A stretch of 45,694 bases of DNA from Acidobacteriota bacterium. Lineage in GTDB: Bacteria > Actinomycetota > Acidimicrobiia > Spongiisociales > UBA5794. The notes under the pieces were generated by a model that saw only the letters and a program-made list of their open reading frames with translations, had not been told where the DNA came from and searched no databases. The position numbers and the translations under genes are program-made. The stretch is taken from positions 1 to 45,694 of the forward strand of contig JADFQA010000027.1 in assembly GCA_022562055.1 (NCBI GenBank). The letters are read 5' to 3'. Shown in pieces: positions 10,445 through 37,912 of the stretch (position 1 is its first letter; each line of letters opens with the position of its first letter).

Positions 10445-10622
10445 ACTCGCCCCGTTCTGTCGCTAGGACCTGAGAGTTTCGCCGGAAATCCGGTTTTCCC
10501 CTTCGGTGAGACGCTGGTGCGGCTACTTTCCAGAGGCGTTTCTGTACTGCGGTACCTGGTGCCTGAGAGATTCCCGGGGCGGTTGCTCCTTCGGCGCCGA
10601 CACAGTGCGGACTCTCCCGCAG
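10445..10622 (-). ncRNA. Tandem glycine riboswitch upstream of gcvP
   Basis: Read on the minus strand, the leader has two consecutive glycine aptamers. The first begins GCGGGAGAGTCCGC and continues through CGCCGAAGGAGCAA to TCTCTCAGGCACC. The second contains CTCTGGAAAGT, CACCGAAGGGGAAAA and AACTCTCAGGTCC. These conserved blocks (GGAGAG, CCGAAGG, CTCTCAGG) in this order and twice over are diagnostic. The second aptamer has GGAAAG where GGAGAG is usual. In known cases this RNA turns gcv genes on when glycine is abundant. It ends about 40 bases before the gcvP start, with a small hairpin and the ribosome site between. Confidence 0.95.
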
Positions 10623-10732
10623 CACGTCATCAACGCGGGAATTGTACCAGTGATGTCAGAACCGTTCCAGTGTTCGTGCGCAGTAACACCCTGCAGCCGC
10701 GCGGCCCACCCTTGCGACGCCGACGAATCGGT

Positions 10733-11542: not shown

Positions 11543-13432
11543 ATGGGACAAGCAGTCGGAATCGACCTCGGAACCACAAACAGCGTCATCGCGGTGCTTG
11601 AGGGCGGCAAGCCAAAGATCATTGCGAACGCCGAAGGACACCGCACAACACCGTCGGTAGTGGCATTCGCCAAGAACGGCGATGTCCTCGTCGGTGACCA
11701 GGCCAAACGTCAAGCCATCACCAATCCAGACCGCACGATCCGTTCGGTGAAACGCCAAATGGGCGAGGATTGGTCTGCGAAAATCGATGGCAAGGACTAC
11801 AGCGCACAAGAAATCTCAGCCCGCATTCTGCAGAAACTGAAGCGCGACGCCGAGAAGTTCCTCGGTAACACGGTCACCGAGGCAGTGATCACCGTGCCCG
11901 CCTACTTTGGTGACGCGCAGCGGCAAGCGACGAAAGAAGCCGGCCAAATCGCCGGCCTCGAAGTTCTTCGTGTCGTCAACGAACCCACCGCTGCTGCGCT
12001 GGCGTACGGCATGGACAAGGATAACGACCATCAGATCCTCATTTTCGACCTGGGTGGCGGCACGTTCGACGTGTCGATACTCGAAATCGGTGAGGGTGTT
12101 TTCGAGGTGAAAGCAACGTCCGGTGACACGGACCTCGGCGGCGACGACTGGGACCAGGCTGTCATGGATTGGCTCATCACTGGGTTCAAGAACGACCACG
12201 GTGTCGACCTCGGCGCAGATCCAATGGCACTCACCCGTGTGAAGGAGGCGGCGGAGAAAGCAAAAATCGAACTGTCGTCGGTTACCGAAACCGAGATAAA
12301 CCTACCGTTCATCACCGCAACCGCCGACGGTCCGATCCATCTCCTCAAAAGCTTGACCAGGACCGAGTTCGAGCGGATGACTGAGTCCCTCGTCGAGAGA
12401 ACACGCAAACCATTCGACCAAGCGGTGAAGGACTCGGGTGTGGCTCTTAAGGACATTGCCCACGTCATCCTCGTCGGCGGGTCCACTCGAATCCCGGCAG
12501 TTCAGGCGTTTGTCGAACAACTCTCGGGCAAGGAAGCTCACCAAGGTGTGAACCCGGATGAGGTAGTCGCTCTCGGTGCCGCGATCCAGGCCGGTGTGCT
12601 CAAGGGCGACGTCAGCGGCATCCTGCTGCTCGACGTGACACCTCTTTCTCTCGGTGTCGAAACCGAGGGCGGGGTTACAAACGTCATGATCGAGCGCAAC
12701 ACGACCATTCCCACCAGACGCGCCGAGATCTACACGACAGCGGCTGACAATCAGTCCGAGGTAGAGATCCACGTGCTCCAGGGTGAACGTTCGATGGCAA
12801 CGGACAACAGCTCGCTAGGCCGGTTCAAGCTGATGGGGATCGTCTCTGCCCCCCGTGGTGTTCCGCAGATCGAGGTCACGTTCGATATCGATGCGAATGG
12901 CATCGTGTCGGTGTCAGCAAAGGATCTCGGCACAGGCAAGAGCCAGTCCGTAACGATCACTGGTGGCACGGCGCTGAGCAAGGACGAAATCGAGGAGATG
13001 ATCGAGGATGCTGAAGCGCACGCGAACGAGGATAAGGAGCGGCGCGAGGCCGCGGAAGTCCGCAACCAAGCAGATCAGCTTTCGCACAACATTGGAAAGC
13101 AGCTGGAAGAGCATGGCGACAAGTTGAGCGACGACGAGCGCGCCCCGATAGACGAGGCGCTCGAAGGACTCAAAACCTTGCTCGCCAGCGACGACCCATC
13201 GACTGAAGACCTGAAGTCTGCCACCGAGACCTTGGCTACATCTAGCCAAATCCTTGGACAGAAAATCTATGAGGCTTCGCAGGCAGATGCAGAGAGCGAC
13301 GCCACAGACACATCCGATGATGACGGCGTTGTTGAGGCAGAGGTCGTTGACGACGATGGGGCCGCCGATGACGTGGTCGAGGCAAATGCAGACGATTCAG
13401 ACGACGAAGCGGGAGACGAGGGCTCATCGTGA
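11543..13432 (+). CDS. dnaK: Molecular chaperone DnaK (Hsp70)
   Basis: A 629-residue Hsp70. The N-terminal ATPase domain shows [41 protein letters not shown] and [13 protein letters not shown]; the substrate-binding domain begins near [14 protein letters not shown]. It binds exposed hydrophobic segments of unfolded proteins in an ATP-driven cycle with GrpE and DnaJ, both encoded just downstream. The start follows AGGAGG (11531-11536). The C-terminal tail of about 45 residues is unusually rich in Asp and Glu ([19 protein letters not shown] and more). The stop overlaps the GTG of grpE. Regulation by the HspR repressor encoded at the end of the operon is expected. Confidence 0.98.
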
Positions 13433-14112
13433 GCAAAGGCACTCCCCCATCTGATGGTGCGGAGAATGTTTCCGCACCATCAGACCCTCCCGTTGTTGAG
13501 GTCGAGATCGTCGAAGCAGATCCCGGTACACAAGAGCCGGCAGCCAGCCACGAATCTGAGCTACCGCCGCAAGAGGGTGTCAGTTTTGTCGAAGAGGTCG
13601 GTGACGGCGGAGGTTTTGATTGGCCGGCCGACCCAGACGAGGCGTTCACCGCCGCGCTCGAACAACTCCGCGCAAGCCGCGAGGAGGCCGTCGATCTACG
13701 AGACAAGCTTCAGCGGATGACGGCGGACTTCGACAACTACCGCAAACGAGTCGAGCGAGACCAGTTCGACATGATTCGCAGGGCTGGAGAGCGAGTCATT
13801 GTGCAGCTCCTCCCGACACTCGACGCCTTCGATGCCGCACTCGCGTTTTCTCCCACGACGGATGGCGAGAAAAAGCTCCTCAAGGGCCTGGCGAGCACCC
13901 ACTCACAGCTCATGGATATGTTGAGCAAGGAAGGGCTTGAGACTACACCTGGCGCCGGCGTGGAGTTCGATCCGAAAATCCACGAAGCGGTGGCGGGCCC
14001 CGCCGACGGATCCGATGACCTGACAGTCTCACAAGAACTACGACGGGGTTACACGTTGCACGACAGAGTCGTCCGCCCGGCGCTGGTCGCGGTGGACAAA
14101 ACGCCCAGTTAG
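13429..14112 (+). CDS. grpE: Nucleotide exchange factor GrpE
   Basis: A 227-residue protein with the GrpE core. An acidic disordered N-terminus of about 80 residues precedes a coiled coil ([28 protein letters not shown]) and the C-terminal beta domain ([39 protein letters not shown]). It releases ADP from DnaK and acts as a thermosensor in studied bacteria. The GTG start overlaps the dnaK stop by four bases, indicating translational coupling and matched amounts of the two proteins. Confidence 0.96.
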
Positions 14113-28547: not shown

Positions 28548-30654
28548 TCACACCGTGGAGTCCCCGCCCCACGGATCTCCATCGTGCGACCCAGAATCCT
28601 GAGCCTGCATGGGAAGGGCAGCTTCTGCGGTTGAGCTAGCCCACGCGGCATGTCCCACCAGTCGCCGGTGACCGCGCCGCCTGCTGATCAGCAGGATCGA
28701 TAGGCCGACGATCGCGGCAACAAAGAAACCAACCACACCGGCCGCAATCCTCAGCCGCGTCTCCCCTAGAGTCTCGGCGTCGTCGAGAACTTGCGTGGCG
28801 AGCGCTGCATCGATCGGCACAGAGTCAATGTCGCCACGTTCGTAGGCGGCGCGGGCGGCGTCAAGGTTGTCTTGCGGGTCTGCTCCAAGCCACAACCCCA
28901 GTCGCATCGCAAGACTACGATCGGCTGCGACAACATCTTCGGAGGCGGCTAGCGCGTCAAGGCCCCGGTCGTGCTGGTTGATCGATGCCCGCACGGAGCT
29001 AAAACCGCCGCGGGTCATCTCGAAGTCGAGCGAGAACACGTCTTGAGTTGTGAGGCCCATGTCGGTAGCGCGAGCGACGAGCGTCAGCTCGAGTTCGTAG
29101 ACCGCAAGCCCTTCATCCATGCGTTGCACAGCGTCATCGAAATCCCAGTCCCCCATGGATTTGCGGATGAGATACGACGGCTGTCTTCCGGTCGTGGTCT
29201 GGAACGCCTGATACTTCTCGCGCGCAACCCTGCGAGCTTCCAATGTCTTCACCTCGTCTGTCTTCACGACTAGGTCGGCGAAGACATCAGTAGCAGTCTC
29301 GGATTCCCCAATCTCTTCGAAAAGATCGAGAAGGCGGCGCCAATCGTCCGGTTCCGCCCACGTCTCGGGCTCTGGTCGTCCAACGTATGCAATGGTGTCG
29401 CTCGCCGCATACAAGAGCACTTCAGCGAAGGCATCGCGACCAATCTCGGTGGTCAGATCATGGATCACCGACCACGATGCGTTATAGCCGTAGGCCTCGT
29501 GAGCATCCGTGAGATCAGACTGGACGTTCGGAAACACCCAAGCGTTGAGGTTCACAGCGCTCGTATCGAAGGCCGAGACCACGGTTGGAAACTCCCTCTC
29601 GTTGAACACTTCACGCAACACTATGGATGCGGCCTCCTCAGCAAACCCTTCGGTGATCCAACGTCCAACAAACAGATCGTCGTTGAACCAGGCATGCGAC
29701 ATCTCGTGGAGCACGATCTGTCGATCGACTTCCTCACCGATCTCGATCTGGATGCCATCCTCGACAAAAAACCACCCTCCAAACCCGGATATGTTGGGAG
29801 CGATCGACTCGGTGACGACGAGCGTGTCGTCGATCGGCCAGGCCAATCCGACAAGGTCTGCCAACGCGGGGAGCCCAAGTTCGAAAGTGTCAGATACCGT
29901 GTCGTACCATTGGTCATCGCCAGGCCAGTTTCTGATGGTGATGTTCTGGCCAGTGAATTCGTGGTCGGTAATGGTGAGAGCGTCATCGTTGATAGCGCCC
30001 ACCAACACAAACCACTCTTGAGGGTCGGCAATAGCCTTGGCGACTCGAACATCCTTGCCGGCCTCGTCTGTTTCCAGGGTCATACGCTCGCCGTCAAGGC
30101 TCACCTGGTAGTCATCGAGACCAACGAGCCTGACTTCGGCACCATCAGGATCGCCAAATGCAACCAGTTGGAAACCAACAAATGCGGAGTTCACCCGGGT
30201 CGAGTCTTCGGACCGAGGCTCCCCGCCGGGGATCTCGTACGTCACCGTGACCGTACGAGACCGCTTGAAGAAAAGGTTCGAGCGGAAATGCACAAGGGCA
30301 ACCGAAAACGAGTCTTCGTCTTCGGAGTCTTCGACCGTAACACGAAGCTCGCGTGTCCCGTCAAAGGCTGCTATGTTCGCAGCCTCGACTGGTAGCGGAA
30401 CAAAAAAACCCATCGTAGAAGTAGCGGGTCGTGACACCACCCTTCGTCGTGTTCGGCGTAGCGTTTGTCGCCTCGACATCGATGGTCACAGAGATCTTGG
30501 AATCAATGGACACGACTTCGTACGTAGTCACCGCGTCGATGTGCAACCCCTCCGAAGCATCGGCGGTGGGCACCACGACGCCGACAATGGTGACAAGAAT
30601 CGCAAAGGCAAACGAGCGACCCAGCGCACGAGTCACCAAATCCACGACCCTCAC
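28548..30654 (-). pseudogene. Membrane-anchored M1-like zinc metallopeptidase, one frameshift
   Basis: Translation from GTG at 30654 gives a signal peptide (SFAFAILVTIVGVVVPTADA) and a beta-rich domain as far as YFYDGFF. The frame changes at a run of seven T (30413-30419 on the plus strand), and the other frame continues VPLPVEAANIAAFDG to the end at 28548; removing one T restores a protein of about 700 residues. The catalytic motif is VLHEMSHAWFN with WITEGFAEEA downstream, as in M1 gluzincins (HExxH plus Glu), but only 14 residues separate H and E instead of 18. A C-terminal membrane helix (GVVGFFVAAIVGLSILLI) and basic tail anchor it. Either a recent mutation or a homopolymer error. Confidence 0.75.
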
Positions 30655-30711
30655 ATGGATTCTGGCGTCGAATCATGCCGGATACGGGCTGATTCGACGC
30701 CAGAATCCATG
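30654..30711. repeat. Perfect 22-bp inverted repeat with 14-base loop
   Basis: The left arm 30654-30675 (starting CATGGATTCTGGCG) is the exact reverse complement of the right arm 30690-30711. The loop can add three more pairs (GCC/GGC). It fills the space between the lgt stop and the start of the peptidase, both on the minus strand, and its last base is the first base of the peptidase GTG codon. No T-run follows, so a simple terminator is not convincing. Alternatives are a mobile palindromic element or a translation-control hairpin. Confidence 0.95.
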
Positions 30712-30729
30712 GGTTGGACGCTGAGCCTG

Positions 30730-37878: not shown

Positions 37879-37912
37879 AAAGGGAGGGCGCACCCTCGTG
37901 CGCCCTCCCTTT
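37879..37912 (-). terminator. Strong stem-loop between binding-protein and permease genes
   Basis: AAAGGGAGGGCGCAC pairs perfectly with GTGCGCCCTCCCTTT (15 bp) around a 4-base loop, 20 bases after the binding-protein stop on the minus strand; CGTTTGGCTGTTTTG follows. It should stop most transcripts or protect the upstream message, letting the binding protein outnumber the permeases. Confidence 0.85.

Follow-up and report, generated by a model that had tools for sequence, protein, structure and literature searches.

A REP-like family of dispersed palindromes in Acidimicrobiia with one copy between lgt and a peptidase gene

Described palindromic repeats and U-less hairpins

REP-type palindromes are most familiar from Proteobacteria, in which their spread is explained by RAYT transposases. 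GTAG REPs and REPINs with RAYT (PMC2817692, PMC3116915) are extragenic palindromes scattered through a genome, in which they can be copied, and in this they resemble the family reported here. The present family differs in that it has no GTAG, a longer perfect stem and no Y1/RAYT gene in its genus, and its copy number is about 20–55 per genome as against more than 100. CGTC-tagged REPs (Di Nocera et al. 2013, PMC3733652) are closer: they are small repeated palindromes near 3' ends in convergent and co-directional gaps and lack a dedicated transposase, and CGTC is also found in the constant end of the present family. They have an unpaired CGTC tag at one end, a stem of 8–9 bp, a loop of 4–5 nt and a CCA tail, whereas here CGTC is internal and pairs with GACG in a symmetrical stem; because this holds for all aligned copies (32/32), with stems of about 20 bp or more, we rejected assignment to the CGTC-tagged REPs as defined. 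CGTC-tagged REPs have been reported in Proteobacteria, Chlorobi, Bacteroidetes, Spirochaetes and Thermotogae, not in Actinobacteria, and it is still to be explained how families that lack a transposase originate and keep their uniformity (PMC3733652). In E. coli, REP hairpins at 3' ends are exonuclease barriers that stabilise the upstream mRNA and can attenuate transcription, and REPs can stall ribosomes if they lie no more than 15 nt from the stop codon (PMC12306157 and references there).

Likenesses also exist to systems other than REPs. The U-less 'I-shaped' hairpin terminators discussed for actinobacteria are likewise G+C-rich hairpins 3' of stop codons without a T-run, but are defined by shape, whereas the copies described here have ends and subfamily arms in common across loci. 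The inverted DNA uptake sequences of Neisseria and Haemophilus are 10-mers in inverted pairs in gaps between convergent genes, as here; the 10-mer of the present family is, in contrast, not over-represented outside paired elements. An uptake sequence was rejected on this account, since, of the 13 occurrences of the 10-mer in 0.85 Mb, 12 are paired and one is isolated, with no excess of single sites. We found no paper on palindromic repeats of Acidimicrobiia in the open-access literature, and the REP-like family is apparently undescribed.

A perfect inverted repeat between lgt and a peptidase gene

The window, the whole stretch of 45,694 nt that was analysed, contains the palindrome in the gap between lgt and a downstream gene for a secreted M1-like peptidase, both transcribed from the minus strand. 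The features of the locus are as follows.

28548..30636, minus strand: secreted peptidase M1-like gene, downstream (weak PF01433 match, under the curated cut-off)
30645..30649, minus strand: GAGGG, Shine-Dalgarno-like, between the hairpin and the probable start codon, outside the stem
30652-30713, both strands: match to covariance model R1 (64.7 and 62.5 bits)
30654..30711, no strand: palindromic element with 22-bp perfect arms and a 14-nt loop
30660..30669, plus strand: family-constant left end TTCTGGCGTC
30670..30695, no strand: variable inner 26 bp GAATCATGCCGGATACGGGCTGATTC, imperfectly palindromic
30696..30705, plus strand: family-constant right end GACGCCAGAA
30730..31647, minus strand: lgt, prolipoprotein diacylglyceryl transferase (PF01790)

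The original prediction described a perfect 22-bp inverted repeat in the lgt-peptidase gap that lacks a T-run, and all three statements were borne out. The arms (30654-30675 and 30690-30711) are perfectly complementary and well above chance expectation: a 106-nt region folded as the minus strand, i.e. the sense strand of both genes, has a free energy of -56.5 kcal/mol compared to -33.3 ± 3.6 kcal/mol for shuffled sequences (z = -6.5), and perfect stems of at least 12 bp number 42 in 0.85 Mb of the real genome and none in two second-order Markov simulations of 0.85 Mb. A canonical intrinsic terminator was ruled out, as the stem is without a T-run. In the sense of transcription, the palindrome follows the lgt stop codon by 18 nt, just beyond the distance reported for ribosome stalling by E. 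coli REPs. Searched against Rfam families at the gathering score, the palindrome had no match; the sole match in the window was a glycine riboswitch aptamer (RF00504, 65.8 bits, 10540-10629, minus strand) upstream of a glycine dehydrogenase gene. Other perfect hairpins in the window are one of 15 bp (37879-37912) in the gap between a minus-strand substrate-binding protein gene and a permease gene, which does not belong to the TTCTGGCGTC/GACGCCAGAA family, and one of 14 bp (13450-13484) near the start of a grpE-like gene at 13429. In the distant relative G051 (L025), a perfect hairpin of 18 bp with an unrelated sequence (GTGTGCAAAAAGGAGTAC...) comes after lgt, so that long hairpins 3' of lgt recur with differing sequences.

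The palindrome was also thought to touch the start codon of the peptidase gene. Its end does coincide with the first base of a GTG (30654-30652), but this is probably not the start codon. The peptidase N-termini of two congeners, MKPFRRAL (G002) and MHRFRRQL (G001), align with V-TRALGRSF encoded from GTG 30636-30634, and the stretch from the hairpin to that codon contains GAGGG; the upstream GTG is therefore an unlikely start. Judged from these sequences, the peptidase probably starts at GTG 30636-30634, 17 nt from the palindrome, and the hairpin therefore covers neither the Shine-Dalgarno sequence nor the probable start codon. The peptidase frame is broken near 30402-30408, close to a run of seven A on the plus strand, and is intact in both congeners; the break may be a sequencing error, a phase-variable tract or decay.

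Copies, anatomy and placement of the family

A search of the genome for other copies of the 22-bp arm, proposed with the original prediction, returned only the window site, even with three mismatches allowed, as did a 20-mer with three mismatches. The result is a false negative, since copies vary in their arms and have only about 10 bp in common; the family was found by other searches. A scan for perfect hairpins over 0.85 Mb of the source genome, with 40 stretches of 20 kb each, revealed a cluster with TTCTGGCGTC...GACGCCAGAA in common, and the family has the form TTCTGGCGTC-N26-GACGCCAGAA (46 bp, some copies 48–49 bp). Exact copies of the pattern TTCTGGCGTC-N(12-40)-GACGCCAGAA number 11 in the source genome (G000), 14 and 16 in the two congeners (G001 and G002) and 13 in one genome from another family of the order, and most others have none; a reversed control pattern had no matches. 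Among about 85,000 species genomes, 57 stretches were found, nearly all in MAGs labelled Acidimicrobiia, Acidimicrobiales or Actinomycetota, and outside the Acidimicrobiia and Actinomycetota labels there were a few single, chance-like matches. A covariance model built from 32 copies gave 39, 57 and 109 strand-matches in G000, G001 and G002, corresponding to about 20, 28 and 55 copies, of which the window contains one, the palindrome at 30654-30711. With a stricter filter, at least 32 of the 99 genomes examined have family matches, and occurrence is patchy even inside one genus. We are thus highly confident that the palindrome belongs to a dispersed REP-like family, specific to this lineage, whose members are near-perfect palindromes of 46 bp.

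Related elements occur in further genomes. In other Acidimicrobiales or Acidimicrobiia MAGs, related 46/47-bp palindromes form direct arrays of three with an 82-bp period (L155, 365-574) and of two (L141, 3346-3464). A CRISPR-like nature of the L155 array, considered for its 46-bp units and 82-bp period, was rejected, as the array has three units only and the DNA between them is repeated too. The order relative G038 has 13 copies of 48-bp elements with the same 10-bp ends (e.g. L106, 1501-1548), whose interior is conserved and poorly palindromic, with the end sequence recurring inside in partial form (AATTCTGGCGGG).

The 10-bp ends are near-constant in mismatch-tolerant and model searches, with variants such as TTTTGGCGTC and TTCTTGCGTAGC. 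The centre differs by subfamily (CATTTGGGC..., CAATAACGC..., CAATCGTGC..., CCTGACAC...) and in many copies is even and loop-free; the inner 26 bp at the window site, GAATCATGCCGGATACGGGCTGATTC, are related to the genome's own CAATCGTGCCGGATACGGCACGATTG subfamily. Of the 29 pairs in alignment A1, 19 changed on both sides, including outer pairs beyond the constant ends, and the covariation score is 0.416 as compared to at most 0.122 when slid. No GTAG or GGAG tag was found at the hairpin foot in this alignment. The A1 copies had been selected by their constant ends, so part of the end invariance reflects selection and is no evidence in A1. Since the ends are near-invariant beyond what an RNA hairpin needs, recognition by a putative protein is suggested.

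Placement was assessed with gene calls from a crude hexamer-based caller. In a first set, 25 of 53 intergenic copies lay between convergent genes, as compared to 14% of background gaps of at least 60 nt (p = 8e-9) or, length-weighted, to a convergent background of 19% (p = 4e-6). A larger set (n = 75) comprised, by the same kind of crude gene calls, 29 convergent, 31 co-directional and 6 divergent sites, about 7 copies inside predicted genes and 2 at contig edges. Stop codons lay within 35 nt of 47 out of 60 copies, whereas 200 random placements in the same gaps gave 36.8 on average and 44 at most. This 3'-end bias is due mostly to G001 and G002 and is weaker in G000 alone (8 of 12 copies, 5.6 expected). 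The family thus has many copies, mainly extragenic and near 3' ends in convergent and co-directional gaps, as is the case for REP-like palindromes in the broad sense. T was not enriched 3' of the stem on either strand of the 75 copies (means of 2.6 and 2.4 in 12 nt), and only 4 of the 75 copies have six or more T in the 12 nt after the stem.

Orthologous sites, function and spread

Comparison of flanks identified one occupied orthologous site common to all three genomes (L210/L239/L225), one common to G000 and G002 (L064/L215) and at least seven common to G001 and G002. At one of the sites common to G001 and G002 (L233 against L229), flank identity is about 80% as far as the element, but the inner 26 bp come from different subfamilies. 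Point mutation cannot account for this exchange; copying from another family member, by gene conversion, template switching or re-insertion, can. In G001, a 2-kb two-gene module lies between two palindrome copies (L234, 2039-4123), while in G002 a single copy joins the same outer flanks (L213, 2025), which points to recombination between copies. Another G002 copy, L263, is flanked by DNA similar to part of this G001 module. In two cases where G001 has a copy, the G002 counterpart looks like a decayed remnant and not a precise gap. A flank search in the congeners found no clean empty site or target duplication, the remaining sites being too diverged to read.

The comparison of the lgt-peptidase gap in relatives, also proposed with the original prediction, gave no family match at the window site in G001 or G002, the palindrome being absent from their gap, while several copies at other sites persist. 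The congener gaps are similarly long without the palindrome (about 85 nt, versus 77 nt at the window site) and thus argue for replacement of the spacer, not simple insertion. The suggestion of a mobile palindromic element is accordingly largely supported, although no transposase was found: the palindrome is one of a dispersed family of near-identical, putatively mobile copies, and both congeners lack it in this gap. The transposase families searched were Y1 and ISL3. The Y1/RAYT transposase (PF01797) is absent from G000–G002 and from 98 of the 99 genomes, with positive controls, and a RAYT-driven REP was ruled out, there being no PF01797 in the genus. A DDE transposase of the ISL3 type was rejected as mobiliser; it occurs once in G000 and is absent from the copy-rich G001, G002 and G004.

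We consider it likely that the palindrome belongs to a REP-like family placed just after stop codons and serves lgt as an RNA hairpin at its 3' end. Given a REP-like family, the step to an RNA function at 3' ends is taken by analogy, and we regard it as evenly balanced. The lgt transcript would include the palindrome, and the long hairpin formed would mark the 3' end of the upstream message. It most likely would block 3'-5' exonucleases, as E. coli REPs do, and may partly punctuate read-through from lgt into the peptidase gene. Owing to its symmetry, a single copy could serve both messages where genes converge. Copies may have been spread or homogenised either through non-allelic copying, such as gene conversion and template switching, or through a putative enzyme recognising the constant ends.

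Other readings account for part of these data. A purely selfish miniature element of the MITE or REP type, with a putative transposase and placement reflecting tolerated insertion sites, would agree with the constant ends, the many near-identical copies, their patchy occurrence across congeners, the exchange of subfamilies at an orthologous site and the recombination between copies. We regard it as doubtful, as Y1 transposase is absent and no target duplications were seen, the outer flanks co-vary too, several sites persist between congeners, and the two G002 sites examined are apparent decayed remnants, not clean empty sites. It is unlikely that the family is a conserved bidirectional terminator without a U-tract, assisted by a factor, instead of an mRNA stabiliser: downstream T is at background on either strand, constant 10-mer ends would be unnecessary, many copies including that in the window occupy co-directional gaps with the next gene near, and two congeners lack the palindrome at the window site, even though the hairpin is symmetrical, is enriched in convergent gaps close 3' of stop codons, and has other U-less hairpins for company in the genome.

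Constant ends at a fixed 46-bp spacing and the even, loop-free centres of many copies could also mark a binding site at which a regulator, nucleoid or chromosome-segregation factor reads the constant 10-mers in DNA. This is quite improbable, as sites between convergent genes would be unusual for a regulator, and recognition of duplex DNA needs no covariation of inner and outer arms, yet covariation is strong. An RNA hairpin controlling peptidase translation, as originally put forward, or a thermometer doing so, drew on the adjoining GTG and is compatible with the short distance to the probable start, but was not supported and is highly improbable: the Shine-Dalgarno sequence and probable start lie outside the stem, both congeners have the peptidase beside lgt without the hairpin, and family copies track gene ends, not starts. 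More speculatively, and with some reserve, the preferred 3'-end hairpins might double as a self-propagating or self-homogenising Acidimicrobiia family, in which a putative enzyme recognises TTCTGGCGTC/GACGCCAGAA and rewrites the inner arms in place, the copies serving as symmetrical 3'-end hairpins for convergent genes.

A transposase-less REP-like family is now found in a deep actinobacterial class, in an uncultured lineage. Persistence, decay, exchange of inner arms and recombination between copies can all be seen among its orthologous copies, so that comparison of the congeners can test how such families originate and remain uniform. The family further provides a concrete U-less 3'-end hairpin for the study of gene ends in these uncultured bacteria.
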